DNA from: Candidatus Omnitrophota bacterium | GTDB taxonomy: Bacteria > Omnitrophota > Gorgyraeia > Gygaellales > JAMWDD01 | Reading direction: 5' to 3' | Assembly (NCBI GenBank): GCA_028717645.1 | Contig: JAQUNK010000006.1 | Coordinates: forward strand, 1 to 56,993 | DNA length: 56,993 nucleotides | Part shown: piece by piece, positions 3 to 8,840 of the stretch | How the letters are laid out: every line of letters starts with the position of its first letter | Numbering within the stretch: the first letter of the stretch is position 1 | Made by a program: the position numbers and the translations under genes | Notes under the pieces: generated by a model | What the model saw: only the letters and a program-made list of their open reading frames with translations | What the model was told of the DNA's origin: nothing | Database searches by the model: none

Positions 3-269
3 ATCGCCGCTTCTTTCCAGGCGGCGGTAGTAGATGCCCTTGTTGAGCAGTCTTTTGCTGCCTGCAAAAAGAACCGGATCAATGAGCTTTTTGTCGGCGG
101 CGGAGTTGCGGCTAATGCGTGTTTGCGCGAAAGGCTTATGAGCCTGGGGCACCAAAAGGGTATAAACGTACATTTACCTGCGAAACCGCTTTGCACCGAT
201 AATGCCGCCATGGTCGCAGGATTGGGTTTCCAACTCTTTAAAGGAGGCAGGAATGCTTACGTCCTATAG
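3..269 (+). CDS. tsaD: tRNA N6-adenosine threonylcarbamoyltransferase TsaD, C-terminal fragment (5' end outside window)
   Basis: Frame 3 reads IAASFQAAVVDALVEQSFAACKKNRINELFVGGGVAANACLRERL...LCTDNAAMVAGLGFQLFKGG, typical TsaD C-terminus; stop TAG 267-269. Confidence 0.85.
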   Translation: MAASFQAAVVDALVEQSFAACKKNRINELFVGGGVAANACLRERLMSLGHQKGINVHLPAKPLCTDNAAMVAGLGFQLFKGGRNAYVL

Positions 270-705
270 TATATTTATCCGTCTGTTGTTATCGGTACTG
301 CTCAGCGGCCTGGTCGGCCTGGAACGCCAGCTTCACCGCCGGACCGCCGGTTTAAGGACGCATATTTTGGTCTGTATGGGCTCGTGTTTGATTATGTTGA
401 CATCCCTTTACATTTTTGATATATATAAAGACAAATCCTCGCTTGATCCAGCGCGTATCGCCGCCGGAGTGATCACGGGCATCGGCTTTTTGGGCGCAGG
501 AGCGATCATACGCAGTGGTGAGGCAGTAAAGGGTTTAACTACCGCAGCAAGCCTTTGGATCGTCGCAGGGATAGGTTTGGCCGTAGGCTGCGGTTTTTAT
601 TTCGCTGCAATAATTTCCAGTATCCTTGCTTTGATCGTCCTACTTTTCTTAAGGCACGTCGAAAAATTTGTGTTCGGTAAAGAAGAATCCAATACTACTA
701 ACTAG
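253..705 (+). CDS. MgtC/SapB family membrane protein
   Basis: FIRLLLSVLLSGLVGLERQLHRRTAGLRTHILVCMGSCLIML...RIAAGVITGIGFLGAGAI is MgtC-like; start moved to ATG 253 behind AAGGAGG. Confidence 0.88.
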   Translation: MLTSYSIFIRLLLSVLLSGLVGLERQLHRRTAGLRTHILVCMGSCLIMLTSLYIFDIYKDKSSLDPARIAAGVITGIGFLGAGAIIRSGEAVKGLTTAASLWIVAGIGLAVGCGFYFAAIISSILALIVLLFLRHVEKFVFGKEESNTTN

Positions 706-716
706 GAGGTGTCGTT

Positions 717-1217
717 ATGGCACTGCGCAGAAGAACAGAAGATAAGATTCTGGACGTAGATGCTTCCATGCAGGGGAGCCTGAATTTCAAGGAAGCAGTG
801 AACTTACGCATAAACGGAAAATTCGAAGGGACATTGGAAACAAAAGGTAACCTTACTATTGGAGAAAACGCCGTGGTCCTTGCGGATATTACCGGGGACA
901 ACATTGTTATCGGCGGGAAAGTAAAGGGTAAGGTGATCGCCAAAGAGCGCTTGACGCTTTTACCCACTGCGTTCATGCAGGGGGAGATGATCCCTGCCAA
1001 GCTGAATGTGGCGGAAGGTGCGATCATCGAGGGTACCTGCCATATGTTGCACGATTATTTTAATGCCGAAGAGCTCGCCCGCTACCTGGAAGTGGAATTG
1101 AATTCCATTCTGGAATGGGCCAATAACGGTAAGATCCCTGCGACCAAGGAAGGCAATGATTGGAAATTCGAGCGAAAAGCCATTGATAGCTGGATTATCA
1201 AGGAAAAGGTAAGCTGA
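717..1217 (+). CDS. Bactofilin-domain protein with C-terminal excisionase/MerR-type helix-turn-helix
   Basis: Bactofilin beta-helix repeats (GSLNFKEAVNLRINGKFEGTLETKGNLTIGENAVVLADI...GKVKGKVIAKERLTLLPTAFMQGEM), then NAEELARYLEVELNSILEWANNGKIPATKEGNDWKFERKAIDSWI (HTH_17-like). Confidence 0.82.
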   Translation: MALRRRTEDKILDVDASMQGSLNFKEAVNLRINGKFEGTLETKGNLTIGENAVVLADITGDNIVIGGKVKGKVIAKERLTLLPTAFMQGEMIPAKLNVAEGAIIEGTCHMLHDYFNAEELARYLEVELNSILEWANNGKIPATKEGNDWKFERKAIDSWIIKEKVS

Positions 1218-1250
1218 TCGCGCAGGAAATATTCTTAAACGGGACAAAAA

Positions 1251-1559
1251 ATGGCTGAAAAATTATTGACTATCCGGGACGTGGCCCAGAAATTAGGGGT
1301 GAATGAAAGCGAAGTGGTTAAGCTCGCAGAAAGCGGGCAACTGCCTGCTTACAAGGTGGGAGGGGTGTACCTGCGTTTTAAAAAAGAACAGGTCGAGGCC
1401 TATATGAAATACGCCCGTATCTCCGATAAGCAGCGATTGACCCTGAACGAATATCCTTTCAGGGATAGGCTTGCCGATTTCTTCTATTTCAACGATTTTT
1501 ATATCCTTGCCGGTATCATAATCTTGATCATGCTGGCGGTTATATTCAAGGGAAGTTAG
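1251..1559 (+). CDS. Excisionase-type HTH protein with C-terminal transmembrane helix
   Basis: LLTIRDVAQKLGVNESEVVKLAESGQLPAYKVGGVYLRFKKEQVEAYM, then hydrophobic FYILAGIIILIMLAVIF. Confidence 0.75.
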   Translation: MAEKLLTIRDVAQKLGVNESEVVKLAESGQLPAYKVGGVYLRFKKEQVEAYMKYARISDKQRLTLNEYPFRDRLADFFYFNDFYILAGIIILIMLAVIFKGS

Positions 1560-1563
1560 CTTA

Positions 1564-2229
1564 ATGAGAAAGAAGGGTTTTACCGATCTGGGCTTTGCCA
1601 AGGTCGATGTAGATAGATTCAAACGCCGCGGGTTCCCTGAAGTCGTATATTGCCCGGGTAAGACCAGGGAACAGATAATCGGTATTGTCCGCGAACTTGC
1701 AAGGCACAAGCAGCCACTTTTACTTACCCGTTTGGAAAAAGATGCGTGGTCCGGCCTAAAAAAACATTTTCCCGGATTGGAATATGACCCTCTGGGGAAA
1801 ATCGCCTATCAAGGGAAAAAAACAACTAAAAAAAGAAAAAATCCTGTTTTGTTGATCAGCGCGGGAACCGCAGATATCCCCGTGGCCGAAGAGGCCTATA
1901 TCACCCTGAAGGTGATGGGTGAGAAGGTGATCAAACTTTATGATGTCGGTGTAGCAGGCTCCCACAGATTGGCGGATAACCTGGGCCTTCTAAAAAAGGC
2001 CAGCGTCATTATCGTTGTGGCAGGCATGGAGGGGGCCTTGGCGAGCCTGGTAAGCGGATTAGTCGCTTGCCCGGTGGTTGCTGTGCCTACCAGTTCCGGT
2101 TACGGCGCAAGTTTTTCCGGGCTTTCCGCGTTGTTGACCATGATCAATAGTTGTTCTCCGGGAGTTGCAGTGGTGAATATCGATAATGGTTTTGGTGCGG
2201 GTTATTTCGCTTCCTTAATAAACAGATGA
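1564..2229 (+). CDS. larB: Nickel pincer cofactor biosynthesis protein LarB (AIR carboxylase-like)
   Basis: FPEVVYCPGKTREQIIGIVREL...ISAGTADIPVAEEAYITLKVMGEKVIKLYDVGVAGSHRL...VVAGMEGALASLVSGLVACPVVAVPTSSGYGAS. Confidence 0.9.
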   Translation: MRKKGFTDLGFAKVDVDRFKRRGFPEVVYCPGKTREQIIGIVRELARHKQPLLLTRLEKDAWSGLKKHFPGLEYDPLGKIAYQGKKTTKKRKNPVLLISAGTADIPVAEEAYITLKVMGEKVIKLYDVGVAGSHRLADNLGLLKKASVIIVVAGMEGALASLVSGLVACPVVAVPTSSGYGASFSGLSALLTMINSCSPGVAVVNIDNGFGAGYFASLINR

Positions 2230-2642
2230 AACGTATTGGCATAAAAGAAGCGGAGATCTTTCACGGCCATCTCGGGCCGTATCTGGTCCTGGGCCTTTTG
2301 GCCGGAGAGCTCGCTTTAAAAAATCTAAAATGCAAAAAGTATTTTGGCCTTCAGGTAAAAGTTTGGGGCGTTGATCAGAAGCCCAAGTCCTGCCTTATTG
2401 ACGGCCTGCAGTTATCTACCGGGGCTACTTTCGGCAAGGGAAATATCGCGAAATTCAGCGCTACCCGCATAAAAATAGAAGTTAGTGACTGCATTAATAA
2501 AAAAAAGGCAACCTTACGCCTGAAAAATGATATCGTAAAAATATTGGAAAAGACAAAGACGCACCAGGATGCAGAATCGTTGGCAAAAAAGCTGTATAAG
2601 ACAGCCGGCCTTAAAATATTTAACCTTAAAAATCAGGAGTAA
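2226..2642 (+). CDS. FmdE-like (formylmethanofuran dehydrogenase subunit E family) protein
   Basis: IFHGHLGPYLVLGLLAGELALKNL...DQKPKSCLIDGLQLSTGATFGKGNI; ATGA overlap with larB. Confidence 0.75.
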   Translation: MKRIGIKEAEIFHGHLGPYLVLGLLAGELALKNLKCKKYFGLQVKVWGVDQKPKSCLIDGLQLSTGATFGKGNIAKFSATRIKIEVSDCINKKKATLRLKNDIVKILEKTKTHQDAESLAKKLYKTAGLKIFNLKNQE

Positions 2643-2644
2643 AA

Positions 2645-3973
2645 ATGGCTTTATCCGGACTGGATATTTATAAGTTGCTTCCTAAAACCAATTGCCGCGA
2701 ATGCGGTTTTCCGACGTGCCTGGCCTTTGCCATGCAATTGGCCAAAAAAGCAGTGCCACTGGATAAATGCCCTTATTTAAGCAAAGAGGCAAAACTGGTG
2801 CTGGAAGAGTCGAGCCTGGCACCCATACGCCTGGTGGTCATAGGTAAAGACAAAAAAATCGAATTAGGCAATGAAACCGTTTTGTTCAGGCATGAAGATA
2901 AGTTTTATCATCCTGCGGCCATAGGCTTTATCATCGATGATAATTCAAGCGATAAGGAAATAGACGTTAAGATAAGCAAAATAAACCGTCTGAAATTCGA
3001 ACGCGTAGGCCAGGCCCTAGAAGCCAATCTGGCCGCTATACGCCAAACTTCCGATAAGAAAAGGTTTCTCGATGTAGTGAAGAAAGTTTCGGCCGCTACG
3101 CAGCTGGAACTTGTTTTGATCAGTTCTGATCTTCAGGCGCAGAAAGAGGCCCTGGGTTTGATCGGTGCAAGAAAGCCGTTGCTGCATCCTCAGAGTGCGC
3201 AAAATATCGCGGATTTCGCCAAACTCGCTCTGGAATACAAGACTTCTCTTGTTGTCGCATCGCCCTCGCTGGAGGAGATATCCAATCTGACCAAAGATTT
3301 GAAAAAACAGGGTCTGGAAGATCTGGTTCTGGATACTGCCAGCAAGTCCTTAGCCAAAAAAATCTGGGATCTCACCCAGATACGGCGCCTGGCCTTAAAG
3401 AAAAAAGATCGTTCTTTCGGTTATCCTACGTTGGTTATTGTCGGAGAAAAGGACCCGTATCTACAGGTAGTTGAGGCGGCGGATTATATTGCCAAATACG
3501 CTTCCATAGTGCTCTTAGAGGGGGCAGAGCCCTGGCAGGCCTTAAGCCTCCTGACGCTACGCCAGAATATTTATTCTGATCCGCAGAAGCCGCTGCAGAT
3601 AGAGCCGAAACTTTATCCTATCGGCCAGGCGGATGAAAAATCGCCGGTTTTGGTCACCACTAATTTTTCGCTCAGTTACTACACAGTATTGGGCGAGGTT
3701 GAAGCAAGTAAGACACCATCTTATATCATGAGCGTAAATACCGAAGGTATGTCCGTGCTTACCGCCTGGGCGGCGGAGAAATTTACGCCGGAAAAAATCG
3801 CCAGTTCCCTGGAGGAATTCGGGGTTAAAGATAAAGTTGGTCATAAGCGGATCATCATCCCCGGTTATGTCGCGGTGATGAGCGGAGACCTCGAAGAAAA
3901 ATCTGGCTGGCAGGTTGTTGTCGGCCCTAAAGAGGCGTCTGGCATACCCAGCTTCCTGAAAAACCTGAAATAA
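2645..3973 (+). CDS. acsC: Acetyl-CoA decarbonylase/synthase corrinoid iron-sulfur protein large (gamma) subunit
   Basis: N-terminal MALSGLDIYKLLPKTNCRECGFPTCLAFAMQLAKKAVPLDKCPYLS Fe-S motif and length/architecture of AcsC/CdhE. Confidence 0.9.
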   Translation: MALSGLDIYKLLPKTNCRECGFPTCLAFAMQLAKKAVPLDKCPYLSKEAKLVLEESSLAPIRLVVIGKDKKIELGNETVLFRHEDKFYHPAAIGFIIDDNSSDKEIDVKISKINRLKFERVGQALEANLAAIRQTSDKKRFLDVVKKVSAATQLELVLISSDLQAQKEALGLIGARKPLLHPQSAQNIADFAKLALEYKTSLVVASPSLEEISNLTKDLKKQGLEDLVLDTASKSLAKKIWDLTQIRRLALKKKDRSFGYPTLVIVGEKDPYLQVVEAADYIAKYASIVLLEGAEPWQALSLLTLRQNIYSDPQKPLQIEPKLYPIGQADEKSPVLVTTNFSLSYYTVLGEVEASKTPSYIMSVNTEGMSVLTAWAAEKFTPEKIASSLEEFGVKDKVGHKRIIIPGYVAVMSGDLEEKSGWQVVVGPKEASGIPSFLKNLK

Positions 3974-3977
3974 TGAA

Positions 3978-4028
3978 CCCCGCACCTTTTTTAGAATGGT
4001 GCGGGTGTAAAAATTAAAAGGTGCGGGG
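3978..4028 (+). promoter_or_regulatory. Competing inverted repeats overlapping the start of the acsV-like gene
   Basis: CCCCGCACCTTTT (3978-3990) pairs perfectly with AAAAGGTGCGGGG (4016-4028, overlapping the GTG start) or through its first part with GGTGCGGG (3998-4005). Confidence 0.6.
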
Positions 4029-5956
4029 TGAAGACTTTCAAAATAAAATTTTTTCCCGATAACCTGGAATGTGAGGTTGAGCAGGGTGCGACTATCCTTG
4101 CCGCTGCCATAAAAGCCGGCATACATATCAATTCTGCCTGCGGCGGAGATGGCGTCTGCGGCCGCTGCAAGGTGGTTTTATTAAAAGGAAATGTGGTTGC
4201 CCAGCCTACGGGCCTGCTTAGCTTAGAGGAAAAAAATAAAAATTACTATCTAGCATGTTCAACGTCCGTGCATTCAGACCTGGAAGTAAAAATTCCGCCT
4301 GAGTCCAGGATAGAGCTGGATAAATTAAGTAAAGAAGAACTCGGCCTGAGGTTGAAGGGGCTCTATGCCAAGTCGGAAGAGCAGTTATTCAGCCTTTCCG
4401 CCAAAAGCGAAAAATTATTTCTTCATTCACCGCTCGCCACTAAATTATACCTGGAGTTGCCTGAGCCGACCTTGGATGATAAAGTCAGTGATTTGGACAG
4501 GTTGTATCGTGCGGTGCGTAGCCTTGGCCACACAGACCTGATACAGACGGGCCTGGCAAATATCCGCCAATTGGGAGAATTATTACGCTCATCCGATTGG
4601 AAGGTTACCGTGACTTTGGGCAGGAGAGGCTTAGCGACCGAGATAGTCCTGATCGAGCCGGGGGACACTTCCGATAAAAATTTCGGCATGGCCTTTGATA
4701 TCGGTACGACCACGATCAGCGGCCAGTTGATCAATCTGAAAACCAAAGAGATCGCTGGGACAAGGATCGAATATAATATGCAGGCGGCATTCGGCCCGGA
4801 CGTGATCACGCGCATAATTTTTGCCAAGGACCCGGATGGCCTGGAAAAATTACACCTGGCAGTGGTCGACGGGATGAATGAGATCATCGGTGACCTGGTG
4901 AAAGAAAGCAAGGTAGACCTGAATAATGTTACCTGCGTGCTTTGTGCCGGGAATACCACGATGATACATTTATTGCTCAGGGTCGACCCTTCGTATATCC
5001 GCCGGGAGCCTTATGTGCCGGTGGCTAATTTTATTCCGAATATCCGCGCCAGCGAAGTAGACTTGATGATCAATCCCCGTGGACTCTTGTCTTGCATACC
5101 GGGTGTAGCAAGTTATCTGGGCGGAGATCTTACCGCGGGAGTCCTTTCCTGCGGTATTGACCGGGAAAGCGATTTGAGCCTTTTGATAGATATCGGCACC
5201 AATGGAGAGATCATTCTGGGTAACCGCGATTTTCTGATCGGTTGTGCTGCTTCAGCAGGCCCGGCTTTTGAAGGCTCAGGGGTATCTAGCGGCATGCGCG
5301 CGGCAAAAGGCGCGATACAAAAAGTAAAAATAGAGGCAAAGGATTATTCGGTAAAATATACGACGATCCTCGACGGAAAGCCGCAGGGCATATGTGGTTC
5401 TGGTTATATCGACCTCCTGGCAGAGATGCTGGAAAAAGGGATCATCGAAAAAAGCGGTAAGATCAAAAATATAAATCACCAGCGCGTGCGCCAGGGTGAA
5501 TACGGAATGGAGTTTGTGGTTGTTCCTGCCTTGGAGGCGTCCACCGGTAAGGATATAGTCATTACCGAAGTGGATATCGATAATCTCAAGCGTGCCAAGG
5601 CGGCTATTTATGCTGCGGTCTCGATATTGGTCAGGCATATGGATTTTGAACTCGATGATATAAAGAAAGTTTTTATTGCCGGAGGGTTCGGCGCGTACCT
5701 GGATCTGAAGAATGCGGTCAAAATAGGCTTGCTACCCGACGTGGGCATGGATAAATTTATTTATGTAGGCAATAGTTCTTTGGCGGGTGTGCGCTCGGCG
5801 CTGCTTTCTTGCCAGGCAATGGAAAAGGCCCAGGAAGTGGCCAAGAAGATCACTTATTTTGAATTATCCGTGGATAATAAATATATGGATGAATACATGG
5901 CGGCTTTATTTTTTCCGCATACTGATTTAACCAGGTTTAAGAGCGTTAAGCTATGA
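4028..5956 (+). CDS. acsV: 2Fe-2S ferredoxin/ASKHA-domain corrinoid activation protein (RACo/AcsV-like, DUF4445)
   Basis: N-terminal ferredoxin Cys pattern (CGGDGVCGRCKVVL...YYLACSTSV), then FGMAFDIGTTTISGQLINL and LLIDIGTNGEIILGN. Confidence 0.88.
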   Translation: MKTFKIKFFPDNLECEVEQGATILAAAIKAGIHINSACGGDGVCGRCKVVLLKGNVVAQPTGLLSLEEKNKNYYLACSTSVHSDLEVKIPPESRIELDKLSKEELGLRLKGLYAKSEEQLFSLSAKSEKLFLHSPLATKLYLELPEPTLDDKVSDLDRLYRAVRSLGHTDLIQTGLANIRQLGELLRSSDWKVTVTLGRRGLATEIVLIEPGDTSDKNFGMAFDIGTTTISGQLINLKTKEIAGTRIEYNMQAAFGPDVITRIIFAKDPDGLEKLHLAVVDGMNEIIGDLVKESKVDLNNVTCVLCAGNTTMIHLLLRVDPSYIRREPYVPVANFIPNIRASEVDLMINPRGLLSCIPGVASYLGGDLTAGVLSCGIDRESDLSLLIDIGTNGEIILGNRDFLIGCAASAGPAFEGSGVSSGMRAAKGAIQKVKIEAKDYSVKYTTILDGKPQGICGSGYIDLLAEMLEKGIIEKSGKIKNINHQRVRQGEYGMEFVVVPALEASTGKDIVITEVDIDNLKRAKAAIYAAVSILVRHMDFELDDIKKVFIAGGFGAYLDLKNAVKIGLLPDVGMDKFIYVGNSSLAGVRSALLSCQAMEKAQEVAKKITYFELSVDNKYMDEYMAALFFPHTDLTRFKSVKL

Positions 5957-6708
5957 GTTTTGTCATTGCTTTGGCCGGAAAAGGCGGCACAGGAAAGACG
6001 ACCATTGCCAGCCTTTTGGTGAAGATATTAAAAGAGGCGGACAAGGGTTCTGTCCTGGCCGTAGATGCCGATCCGAACAGTAATTTGGCTGAATTCCTGG
6101 GCGTAAAAGCAGAGCGGACCATCGGTGCGATATTGGATGAGATCGCCGAGAACCCGGACAAGGTACCTAAAGGAATGCCTAAGGACAGGTTCATTGAATA
6201 CGAGGTTGAGAAAGCGCTGGATGAATCCGCCGGCTATGGCATACTTACTATGGGTAGGCCTGAAGGCCCGGGCTGCTATTGCTATGTAAACAATCTTTTA
6301 AGGAATATGGTGGGTAAACTGATCAAGGATTATGATTACGTAGTTATCGATAATGAAGCAGGGCTGGAGCATTTATCGCGCCGCACTATGCGTAATGCCG
6401 ATAGCCTGGTCATCGTTTCTGACCCTACCCAGGCGGGCCTGCGTGCCGCAAAAAGGATATTGGCGTTGGCAGGGGAACTGAAAATAAAGACCAATAAGAA
6501 ATTTCTTCTGATAAACCGCGCGCGTGCTGCGTTTGATGCAAGGAACTTAAAGGGATTTGAGGATGTTGTTTTTTTAGGAGAACTACCCGAGGATGAAGAA
6601 ATATTGAAGTTGAGCCTTAACGGTAGCTCCCTGGCCGGCTTAGATGATCGTTCGGCGGGCCTGGAAAGACTAAAGGAGATGGCAAAAAAGATATGGCAAT
6701 CGAATTAG
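5953..6708 (+). CDS. cooC: CooC/AcsF-type nickel-insertion ATPase
   Basis: Deviant Walker A KGGTGKTT, CYCYVNN CxC motif, VIDNEAGLEHLSRR. Confidence 0.9.
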   Translation: MSFVIALAGKGGTGKTTIASLLVKILKEADKGSVLAVDADPNSNLAEFLGVKAERTIGAILDEIAENPDKVPKGMPKDRFIEYEVEKALDESAGYGILTMGRPEGPGCYCYVNNLLRNMVGKLIKDYDYVVIDNEAGLEHLSRRTMRNADSLVIVSDPTQAGLRAAKRILALAGELKIKTNKKFLLINRARAAFDARNLKGFEDVVFLGELPEDEEILKLSLNGSSLAGLDDRSAGLERLKEMAKKIWQSN

Positions 6709-7634
6709 CTAAAGAAAAATGGTCAGGTGTGATTAATCAGGTCAAGATCGGAGCGGCAAAGGCGATCAGCGTCGGACAAGAGCAGGCACTACCTTTCTTG
6801 CACGAAGAAGGCGGTGCGCCGCATAAGCCGGTAGTGGCTTATGAGGTCTGGGATACTGTTCCGGCTGATTGGCCCGAGGCCCTTATTTCTGCTTACGGCA
6901 ATGTGCTAAAGGACCCGGTTGCCTGGGTAAAGAAATGTGTTACTGAATTTGGCGCGCAGCTGGTTGCAATAAAATTAATTTCTGCACACCCGGATATGGG
7001 CAATAAGAGCGTAGAAGAGATAGCAGCACTGGTAGAAAAAATTAAAAAAGCCGCCGGGGTTCCCTTGATCATTAGCGGTTGCGGGGATAATGCTAAGGAT
7101 AACCTGATCCTGCCTGCCTGCGCCGAGGCCCTTAAAGGAGAGAACTGCCTTATCGGCAGCGTCACACAGGATAATTATAAGACGATCACTGCGGCCTGCC
7201 TGGCTGACGGCCACAGCATTATTGCCGAATCGCCTATTGATATCAACATCGCCAAACAATTGAATATCTTGATCTCCGATATGGGGATGCCCGCAGAACG
7301 CATTGTAATTAATCCTACGGTGGGTGCGTTAGGATATGGGCTGGAATATGCTTATTCTATTATGGAGCGTGCGCGCCTGGCAGCGCTATCGGGCGATAAG
7401 ATGTTAAGCATGCCTTTTATCTGTTTTGTTGGGCAGGAAACCTGGCGTACAAAAGAGGCAAGGGCAACCGAGGAAGAGCTCGCCGGATGGGGCCCGGCCC
7501 TGGAGCGTGGGATCGTCTGGGAGGCATTGACCAGCGCAGCATTTTTGCAGGCCGGTGCGGATATTTTGGTGATGCGCCATCCGAAGGCCATCGATATAGT
7601 AAAGAAAAATATAGAAGAGCTGATGAGGGGCTAA
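6693..7634 (+). CDS. acsD: Acetyl-CoA decarbonylase/synthase corrinoid iron-sulfur protein small (delta) subunit
   Basis: TIM-barrel protein with HKPVVAYEVWDTVPADWPEAL...DMGMPAERIVINPTVGALGYGLEYAYSIMERARLAAL...PFICFVGQETW. Confidence 0.9.
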   Translation: MAIELAKEKWSGVINQVKIGAAKAISVGQEQALPFLHEEGGAPHKPVVAYEVWDTVPADWPEALISAYGNVLKDPVAWVKKCVTEFGAQLVAIKLISAHPDMGNKSVEEIAALVEKIKKAAGVPLIISGCGDNAKDNLILPACAEALKGENCLIGSVTQDNYKTITAACLADGHSIIAESPIDINIAKQLNILISDMGMPAERIVINPTVGALGYGLEYAYSIMERARLAALSGDKMLSMPFICFVGQETWRTKEARATEEELAGWGPALERGIVWEALTSAAFLQAGADILVMRHPKAIDIVKKNIEELMRG

Positions 7635-7635
7635 G

Positions 7636-8424
7636 ATGTTTATTATCGGCGAACTGCTGAACGGGATGTATAAGGAAGTAGGCGAAGCGATCAAGAAAAA
7701 AGATAAATCCGTGATCCAGCGCATCGCCAAAGAACAGGTGGCGCGGGGAGCAGGGGCGCTAGATCTAAATTGCGGCCCGGTTTCCAAAGATCCGGTCCAG
7801 GACATGCAATGGTTGATCCAGGCCGTGCAAGAAGCAGTGGATATACCGCTTTCGCTGGATAGCACTAAAGCAAATGTTATTGCAGAGGGCCTGAAGCTGG
7901 TAAAAAATAAGGCGATCATTAATTCTACTTCTGCGGACGCCGAGAAATTGGAAATATTGGTCCCTTTGGCTATCCAGTACAACGCTTCATTGATCGGCCT
8001 TACGCTGGATAAAAAAGGCGTGCCGCAGGATAAAGACAGGCGCCTGGAATTGGCCGCGCGTATCGTAGCAGATTGCCAGGAAAAAGGATTCCCGGTCGAG
8101 AATTTATATATCGATCCGATCGTGTTGCCGGTAAATGTAGCGCAAAATCAGGCCAGGGATGTGTTGGAGGTATTACGGGAATTTAAGATCATTTCTGATC
8201 CCCCGCCCAAGACCGTTGTGGGCCTAAGCAATGTCTCACAGGGTACTTGTAACCGTAGCATTATCAACCGCACCTTTCTGGCCATGGCCATCGGTGCAGG
8301 GCTTGATGCGGCGATACTCGACCCCTTGGACAAGGAATTAATGAATGTCTTGATCACCTCCGAGCTGATCTTGAATAAGCAGATATATTGTGATTCCTAT
8401 TTAGACGCATACCGCAAGAAGTAA
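7636..8424 (+). CDS. acsE: Methyltetrahydrofolate:corrinoid/iron-sulfur protein methyltransferase
   Basis: Pterin-binding TIM barrel: ARGAGALDLNCGP...PLSLDSTKANVIAEGL...INSTSAD...GLSNVSQGTCNRSIINRTFLAMAIGAGLDAAILDPLD. Confidence 0.9.
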   Translation: MFIIGELLNGMYKEVGEAIKKKDKSVIQRIAKEQVARGAGALDLNCGPVSKDPVQDMQWLIQAVQEAVDIPLSLDSTKANVIAEGLKLVKNKAIINSTSADAEKLEILVPLAIQYNASLIGLTLDKKGVPQDKDRRLELAARIVADCQEKGFPVENLYIDPIVLPVNVAQNQARDVLEVLREFKIISDPPPKTVVGLSNVSQGTCNRSIINRTFLAMAIGAGLDAAILDPLDKELMNVLITSELILNKQIYCDSYLDAYRKK

Positions 8425-8432
8425 CAATAAAT

Positions 8433-8840
8433 ATGGCAGAGAGCATTTTTGATAAAAAGATATTCAGGAACATTTTTAAATTCCATCCTTTGAAAAAAAG
8501 TTTTAGTTACGCTTTCCAGGGGCTGTGGTATATGTTCCTATGCCATCGTAATATGCGCATAATCCTGCTCTCCGGTATCCTGGCCGTTTCGCTCGGCCTT
8601 TATCTGGAGATCACCCGCATTGAATTTATTATTTTATTGGTGACTATCAGCGTAGTGTTTATCGCGGAAATGTTTAATACTGCCATTGAACTGATCATCG
8701 ATATGTTCACCGAGAAATATCATGTTCTGCTTAAGATCATCAAGGATATATCCGCAGGCGTCGTCCTGATCGCCTGCCTTAATGCCGTGGCAGTCGGCTA
8801 TTTTTTGTTCTTTAAGAGAATAGTCTTTATTTTTAAATAA
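8433..8840 (+). CDS. dgkA: Diacylglycerol kinase family membrane protein
   Basis: SFSYAFQGLWYMFLCHRNMRI...FIAEMFNTAIELIIDMFTEKYHVLLKIIKDISAGVVLIA. Confidence 0.85.
   Translation: MAESIFDKKIFRNIFKFHPLKKSFSYAFQGLWYMFLCHRNMRIILLSGILAVSLGLYLEITRIEFIILLVTISVVFIAEMFNTAIELIIDMFTEKYHVLLKIIKDISAGVVLIACLNAVAVGYFLFFKRIVFIFK

Follow-up and report, generated by a model that had tools for sequence, protein, structure and literature searches.

Near one end of the window, by which we mean the whole 56,993-nucleotide stretch of Candidatus Omnitrophota DNA that was analysed, two short genes follow one another on the same strand, separated by 33 bases (Table 1). The first, preceded by a Shine-Dalgarno-like AGGAGG at positions 704–709, encodes the sole bactofilin of the genome, and its product is a two-domain protein: the bactofilin profile PF04519 matches residues 11–108 with 80.8 bits (cut-off 27.9), and the helix-turn-helix (HTH) profile HTH_17 (PF12728) matches residues 114–160 with 41.6 bits (cut-off 27), a region that also scores above the cut-off of the TIGR01764 “excise” model (33.8 against 28.8). 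The second gene encodes a small protein, here named HTM, that combines an HTH of the same profile family with a single hydrophobic stretch, FYILAGIIILIMLAVIFKG, beyond which HTM proteins extend by about 1.5 residues on average; a match of HTM to MerR_2 is weak (E 0.005, below cut-off). At the N-terminus of the bactofilin, the phylum consensus MAFKKK, a hydrophobic and basic peptide, resembles the membrane-targeting peptide of BacA, MFSKQAKS (PMC12448750), and the copy in the window reads MALRRR, with Leu at the Phe position.

Table 1. Positions in the window of the bactofilin-HTH gene, the HTM gene, their parts and their immediate neighbours.
Feature	Position	Strand	Basis or remark
tsaD (3′ end)	3..269	+	Upstream neighbour, conserved across the phylum
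MgtC-family membrane protein	202..705	+	PF02308, 147 bits; conserved upstream neighbour
Bactofilin-HTH fusion gene	717..1217	+	166 aa; PF04519 and HTH_17 profile matches
N-terminal 10 residues of bactofilin-HTH	717..746	+	Phylum consensus MAFKKK..E; putative membrane-targeting peptide
Bactofilin beta-helix (polymerisation) domain, residues 11–108	747..1040	+	PF04519; AlphaFold2 strands; Foldseek 6rib
Winged-HTH (HTH_17) domain, residues 114–160, charge-inverted	1056..1196	+	HTH_17; AlphaFold2; charge
Former recognition helix, residues 128–136, E133 and W134 conserved	1098..1124	+	Alignment counts; BldC equivalence
HTM, tail-anchored HTH membrane protein, 102 aa	1251..1559	+	HTH_17, 44 bits; hydrophobic C-terminus; adjacency
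HTH_17 domain of HTM, residues 5–52	1263..1406	+	44 bits; E19, Y34, G38, R42 strongly conserved
Juxtamembrane motif DFFYFNDFYI, HTM residues 76–85	1476..1505	+	Near-invariant
C-terminal transmembrane helix of HTM, residues 83–101	1497..1553	+	Kyte-Doolittle window 2.5; AlphaFold2 helix
larB	1564..2229	+	NF033503, 282.9 bits; usual downstream neighbour

An AlphaFold2 model of the bactofilin-HTH protein, built on an alignment of 74 natural sequences, consists of a beta-helix followed by a helix-helix-hairpin-helix unit, that is, a winged HTH (helices 117–124, 128–136 and 153–165, hairpin 143–152). The mean pLDDT is 84.7; the fold is predicted at pLDDT 80–85, and mostly above 90 in a run with a larger alignment. 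The model contains no C-terminal coiled coil. Foldseek pairs the core with the Thermus thermophilus bactofilin 6rib (target-normalised TM 0.89) and the tail with BldC, 6amk (target-normalised TM 0.80), with further tail matches to RacA, RdfS, Xis and the J-domain-binding protein CbpM. The first-pass annotation of this DNA, made from the sequence alone, had described a bactofilin and an excisionase-type HTH in one polypeptide, on the premise that its C-terminal part adopts a winged-helix fold; the profile and structure matches bear out both.

The fusion is present at full length in 238 of 285 Omnitrophota genomes (84%) and in 187 of 224 genera, which establishes it as a real gene rather than a mis-called frame; among the nearest relatives, about 51 of 57 have a full-length homologue with 59–81% identity. 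When 84,980 species genomes were scanned, with a reach that extends to close relatives only, the full fusion was seen in Omnitrophota alone, and two Maribellus bactofilins were matched over the bactofilin part with no match to the HTH part. Nor was any paper on a bactofilin-HTH fusion, on Omnitrophota bactofilins or on the cell-shape cytoskeleton of this phylum found in the open literature searched, in keeping with the earlier remark that a built-in HTH is unusual. Within the phylum, bactofilins nearly always carry the HTH, given that 23 of the 25 fusion-less genomes examined have no detectable bactofilin at all. A few Omnitrophota do possess an ordinary HTH-less bactofilin, for example one with the N-terminus MFRKKD, either alone or as a second copy (L267 of genome G022, positions 1462–1851; G056:C28:39583-39924).

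The two genes are a lasting unit. Of 223 informative loci, 222 have HTM directly 3′ of the bactofilin-HTH gene and in the same orientation; these comprise 185 distinct pairs, and the distance between the two genes has a median of 18 nt. A single locus, L240, has the bactofilin-HTH without an adjoining HTM. The usual gene order is gatB-ctpA(S41)-[Polysacc_deac_2]-tsaD-mgtC-bactofilinHTH-HTM-larB; since the tsaD-mgtC order is stable too, a general stability of gene order could account for the adjacency of the pair. At one locus (L083), the pair is intact although its flanks are def, a PAP2 phosphatase and acpS in place of tsaD/mgtC and larB. The S41 protease and a divergent polysaccharide deacetylase, co-conserved upstream, weakly hint at a role in the envelope or cell wall.

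What sets the bactofilin HTH apart from its relatives is its surface chemistry. Its mean net charge is −3.7 (n = 185), compared with +1.7 for the HTH of HTM (n = 185) and +4.2 for the controls, 33 further HTH_17 domains that these genomes encode; it is net negative in 179 of 185 sequences, and the comparison with the controls gives a Mann-Whitney p of 1.7e-20 (the sequences not being independent). Where ordinary members read K-V-T-R-R-T-I-Y-[ED]-W, the bactofilin HTH reads E-V-[DE]-L-N-S-I-[LM]-E-W, and further acidic residues occur at positions 125, 127, 145 and 152, the last two (E145, E152) making the wing acidic. In BldC, bases are contacted by Arg30 and Lys26 and phosphates are held by Thr27, Thr29 and Lys33, and the R30A substitution alone abolishes DNA binding (PMC5859096). 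These five residues (Arg30, Lys26, Thr27, Thr29 and Lys33) align with E133, N129, S130, L132 and N136, respectively, and the Arg47/48 positions are occupied by W149/K150. The equivalent of BldC Arg30-Trp31 is thus E133-W134, with Glu or Asp at 133 in 163 of 185 sequences and Trp at 134 in 160 of 185, and the Lys26 position holds Asn or Ser. It is important to stress that several ordinary HTH_17 proteins likewise carry Asp or Glu at the Arg30 position, so the argument rests on the loss of the neighbouring basic residues and on the overall reversal of sign.

The acidic and neutral replacements are themselves conserved, and a fold that is kept while its DNA chemistry is lost and its new residues are conserved is the mark of a domain that has gone over to binding proteins. 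From its residues and by analogy, the bactofilin HTH therefore has the appearance of a winged helix adapted to dock proteins, the use to which this fold is put in CbpM, a MerR-like HTH protein that lacks DNA-contact residues, binds the J-domain of CbpA and is encoded beside this partner (PMC4063869). The likeness to CbpM (3ucs) is one of fold and of missing DNA-contact residues only: CbpM is a soluble coiled-coil dimer that regulates a co-chaperone, and no match to the CbpM family was found for either protein in a profile search. Of the two functions that had been offered for the HTH module at first reading, binding of DNA or of peptides, the conserved replacements fit the second better. The HTH fold and HTH_17 membership are common to BldC, Xis, RdfS, RacA and both Omnitrophota domains, but relative to these proteins the bactofilin HTH is charge-inverted and without DNA-contact residues, and the HTM copy is tail-anchored. 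The shared HTH type and the C-terminal membrane segment of HTM are as first described, but the two HTHs are not especially close: an origin as recent duplicates was considered and rejected, the bactofilin HTH being nearer to ordinary HTH_17 domains (mean identity 33%) than to the HTM domain (23.5%). Many Omnitrophota (L118–L146) also encode several short (60–90 aa), uniform HTH_17 proteins with the pattern TIYEWLKKxKIPAxKLVGQWRFKKDxIDxWL.

A near-invariant motif of HTM lies next to the membrane. In this motif, DFFYFNDFYI, Y84 is present in 185 of 185 sequences, F83 in 179, F77 in 178 and D82 in 171, and a helix predicted at residues 260–279 of a tandem model of both proteins corresponds to HTM residues 82–101. 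HTMs of six loci (L080, L086, L089, L094 from Ca. Tantalella, L095 and L096) have an insertion of 20–30 residues between the HTH and the transmembrane helix.

HTM is kept in about 11 of the 25 fusion-less genomes (at two of these, G005 and G180, the loci lie at contig ends and the absence of the bactofilin is uncertain), and in several cases the HTM gene directly follows mgtC (or tsaD) and precedes larB, the bactofilin gene being absent. At L270–L277, HTM is retained and the bactofilin is gone from the same locus, an apparent repeated loss. Set against the single bactofilin-only locus among 223, the HTM-only genomes indicate a one-way dependence in which the bactofilin-HTH needs HTM but not the reverse, and HTM must be more than a dedicated bactofilin anchor if it survives the loss of the bactofilin. 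The notion of a filament scaffold and its membrane anchor, as first put forward, is consequently retained in part: a membrane-anchored HTH protein next to a filament-forming one agrees with a system linked to the envelope, but HTM outlives the bactofilin. For the same reason, a further partner of HTM, or more than one, is probable. The DFFYFNDFYI motif is intact in the HTMs of bactofilin-less lineages. Tyr34, by comparison, is aromatic in 184 of 185 paired HTMs and is replaced by His, Thr or Lys in 5 of 11 bactofilin-less sequences (about three lineages), and Lys35 is also lost in about three such lineages. Tyr34 aligns with BldC Ile40, part of the protomer-protomer interface of BldC (PMC5859096). 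The pattern is suggestive of a bactofilin-facing side of HTM that includes Tyr34-Lys35, and only suggestive, since bactofilin-less HTMs are more diverged overall and the relaxation of Tyr34 could be part of that general divergence.

Direct contact between the two HTHs was sought by modelling and by covariation. The tandem AlphaFold2 model was made by reading through both genes, which are in the same frame, with the TGA and TAA codons taken as residues, on an alignment of 82 rows (43 other paired sequences and 38 bactofilin-only sequences, plus the query). The co-folding check proposed with the first description thus gave confident domains but, at a pTM of 0.51, no confident relative placement or interface. 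Mean-field direct coupling analysis (DCA) of 185 pairs yielded a strong inter-HTH pair, b120-h31, and the best-scoring pair between the proteins exceeded what shuffling within clades produced; on a tree-aware co-change test, the signal for this pair was largely gone after multiple testing. A candidate E125-R9 salt bridge, drawn by analogy with BldC Arg22-Glu16′, was rejected when the compensatory pattern was not found. With neither the tandem model nor covariation giving a contact, we treat direct HTH–HTH docking as an inference.

Taken together, these observations lead us to a reading to which we would assign an even chance: an Omnitrophota-wide, membrane-coupled bactofilin scaffold in which a repurposed HTH serves as a docking module. 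By analogy, the bactofilin-HTH would polymerise like other bactofilins, and the resulting array of acidic winged HTHs along the filament would offer a multivalent surface for protein docking. HTM would be the main partner, its HTH predicted to face the cytoplasm with a basic wing and the conserved Tyr34-Lys35 strand; it may recruit or sense the filament at the inner membrane, so that the bactofilin would be coupled to that membrane through HTM or together with it. A signal could then pass to the envelope machinery via the DFFYFNDFYI/transmembrane segment, which would connect to a further membrane partner. A more specific form of this scheme, in which ancestral coupling of filament and membrane relied on two repurposed HTHs, the charge-inverted bactofilin domain, recruited from a family of DNA-binding proteins, binding that of HTM without DNA and possibly head-to-tail like BldC protomers, is one that we put forward tentatively and consider somewhat unlikely.

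Several known systems offer precedents or parallels for such a scaffold. SepH binds FtsZ via an HTH motif (PMC7968930), the cytoplasmic HTH-containing domain of RodZ binds MreB (PMC6052060), and in the CcmA-Csd5/Csd7 system, which sets helical shape in Helicobacter pylori, and the BacA-PbpC system a bactofilin is bound cytoplasmically by a membrane protein (PMC9507126, PMC12448750). In its predicted topology HTM resembles RodZ, whose cytoplasmic HTH and lone transmembrane helix accompany a filament of the cytoskeleton. The HTH of RodZ is of the Cro type (HTH_25) and is accompanied by a large periplasmic domain, whereas HTM belongs to HTH_17 and has essentially no periplasmic part, and its putative filament partner, unlike MreB, carries an HTH of its own. 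The pairing of a bactofilin with a membrane protein is the feature held in common with Csd5/Csd7 and PbpC; Csd5 and PbpC have no known sequence relation to HTM, and no HTH is reported in the CcmA or BacA systems. The beta-helix is likewise common to BacA of Caulobacter, 6rib, CcmA and the Omnitrophota protein, but in the bactofilins characterised so far the C-terminal flank is short or variable, where Omnitrophota have a folded winged HTH conserved phylum-wide. By analogy, then, the system would work like RodZ-MreB, CcmA-Csd5 and BacA-PbpC, with HTM standing outside those partner families.

Several other explanations can be envisioned. HTM may be an independent membrane adaptor or regulator with several clients, the bactofilin being an optional one that need not touch the HTH of HTM and may instead attach to some other member of that membrane complex. 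The several lineages that have the order tsaD-mgtC-HTM-larB and an unaltered membrane motif but no bactofilin, and the lack of an HTH–HTH contact in the tandem model or in covariation are what such an adaptor would lead one to expect, but a bactofilin-HTH without HTM at just 1 of 223 loci and the relaxation of Tyr34-Lys35 in three bactofilin-less lineages are not, and we judge this explanation unlikely, if far from negligible. The tethering of DNA, which the first-pass annotation had suggested, would have both HTHs bind DNA and link the chromosome or pole to the envelope in the manner of BacNOP/PadC-ParABS. BldC, RacA and excisionases, which bind DNA, have the same fold, Myxococcus xanthus bactofilins organise ParABS (PMC5703909), and the HTH of HTM, mildly positive overall, has a basic wing (R42 in 185 of 185 sequences, Lys or Arg at 44 in 175). 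Yet the recognition helix of HTM is acidic (E19 in 168 of 185, with E21, D24 and E27 acidic in most), and the control HTH_17 proteins of the same genomes retain the basic pattern that the bactofilin HTH, negative almost throughout and with Glu/Asp in the place of BldC Arg30 and Asn/Ser in that of Lys26, has lost; no parA-, parB- or padC-like gene was found among the conserved neighbours (tsaD, mgtC, ctpA, gatB, Polysacc_deac_2, larB). DNA tethering accordingly appears improbable.

We are equally doubtful that this is an ordinary bactofilin whose HTH acts as a structural cap or as a homodimerisation module for bundling, with HTM a mere gene-order companion. Bactofilin flanking domains are variable and modulate assembly (PMC12364344), and the conserved tsaD-mgtC order would suit a mere companion, but the 59–81% identity across an order extends over the whole protein including the HTH, specific surface residues (E125, D/E127, E133, W134) are conserved, and HTM moves with the bactofilin at L083. 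Autoregulation, in which the HTH would control its own operon and be sequestered by filament assembly as a polymerisation sensor, is very improbable: the excisionase/MerR-type fold and an operon position beside housekeeping genes would suit it, but the DNA-contact chemistry is lost, HTM is tail-anchored, and the pair persists at L083 while its neighbours vary.

A membrane-coupled bactofilin scaffold with an HTH docking module would be of interest beyond this locus. Omnitrophota are a widespread, almost uncultured and poorly known phylum, and a fusion in 84% of the sampled genomes and a membrane partner conserved just as well point to a central system of cell organisation. Annotation pipelines would label both HTHs as DNA-binding, and the residue evidence disagrees; the pair would join CbpM, SepH and RodZ as examples of HTH folds with roles in protein-protein interaction and cell architecture rather than transcription.

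The surroundings of the pair in the window also merit description. On its 3′ side, positions 1564–8424 hold a carbonyl-branch Wood-Ljungdahl cluster whose order is the same in many Omnitrophota: larB, an FmdE-like gene, an AcsC-like CdhD/FeS protein, a RACo-like ferredoxin-domain activator, a CooC-like ATPase and AcsD-like and AcsE-like genes, the names other than larB, FmdE and CdhD being taken from translations only. Beside these genes, positions 8433–8840 encode a small membrane protein that, judged by its translation only, resembles diacylglycerol kinase.
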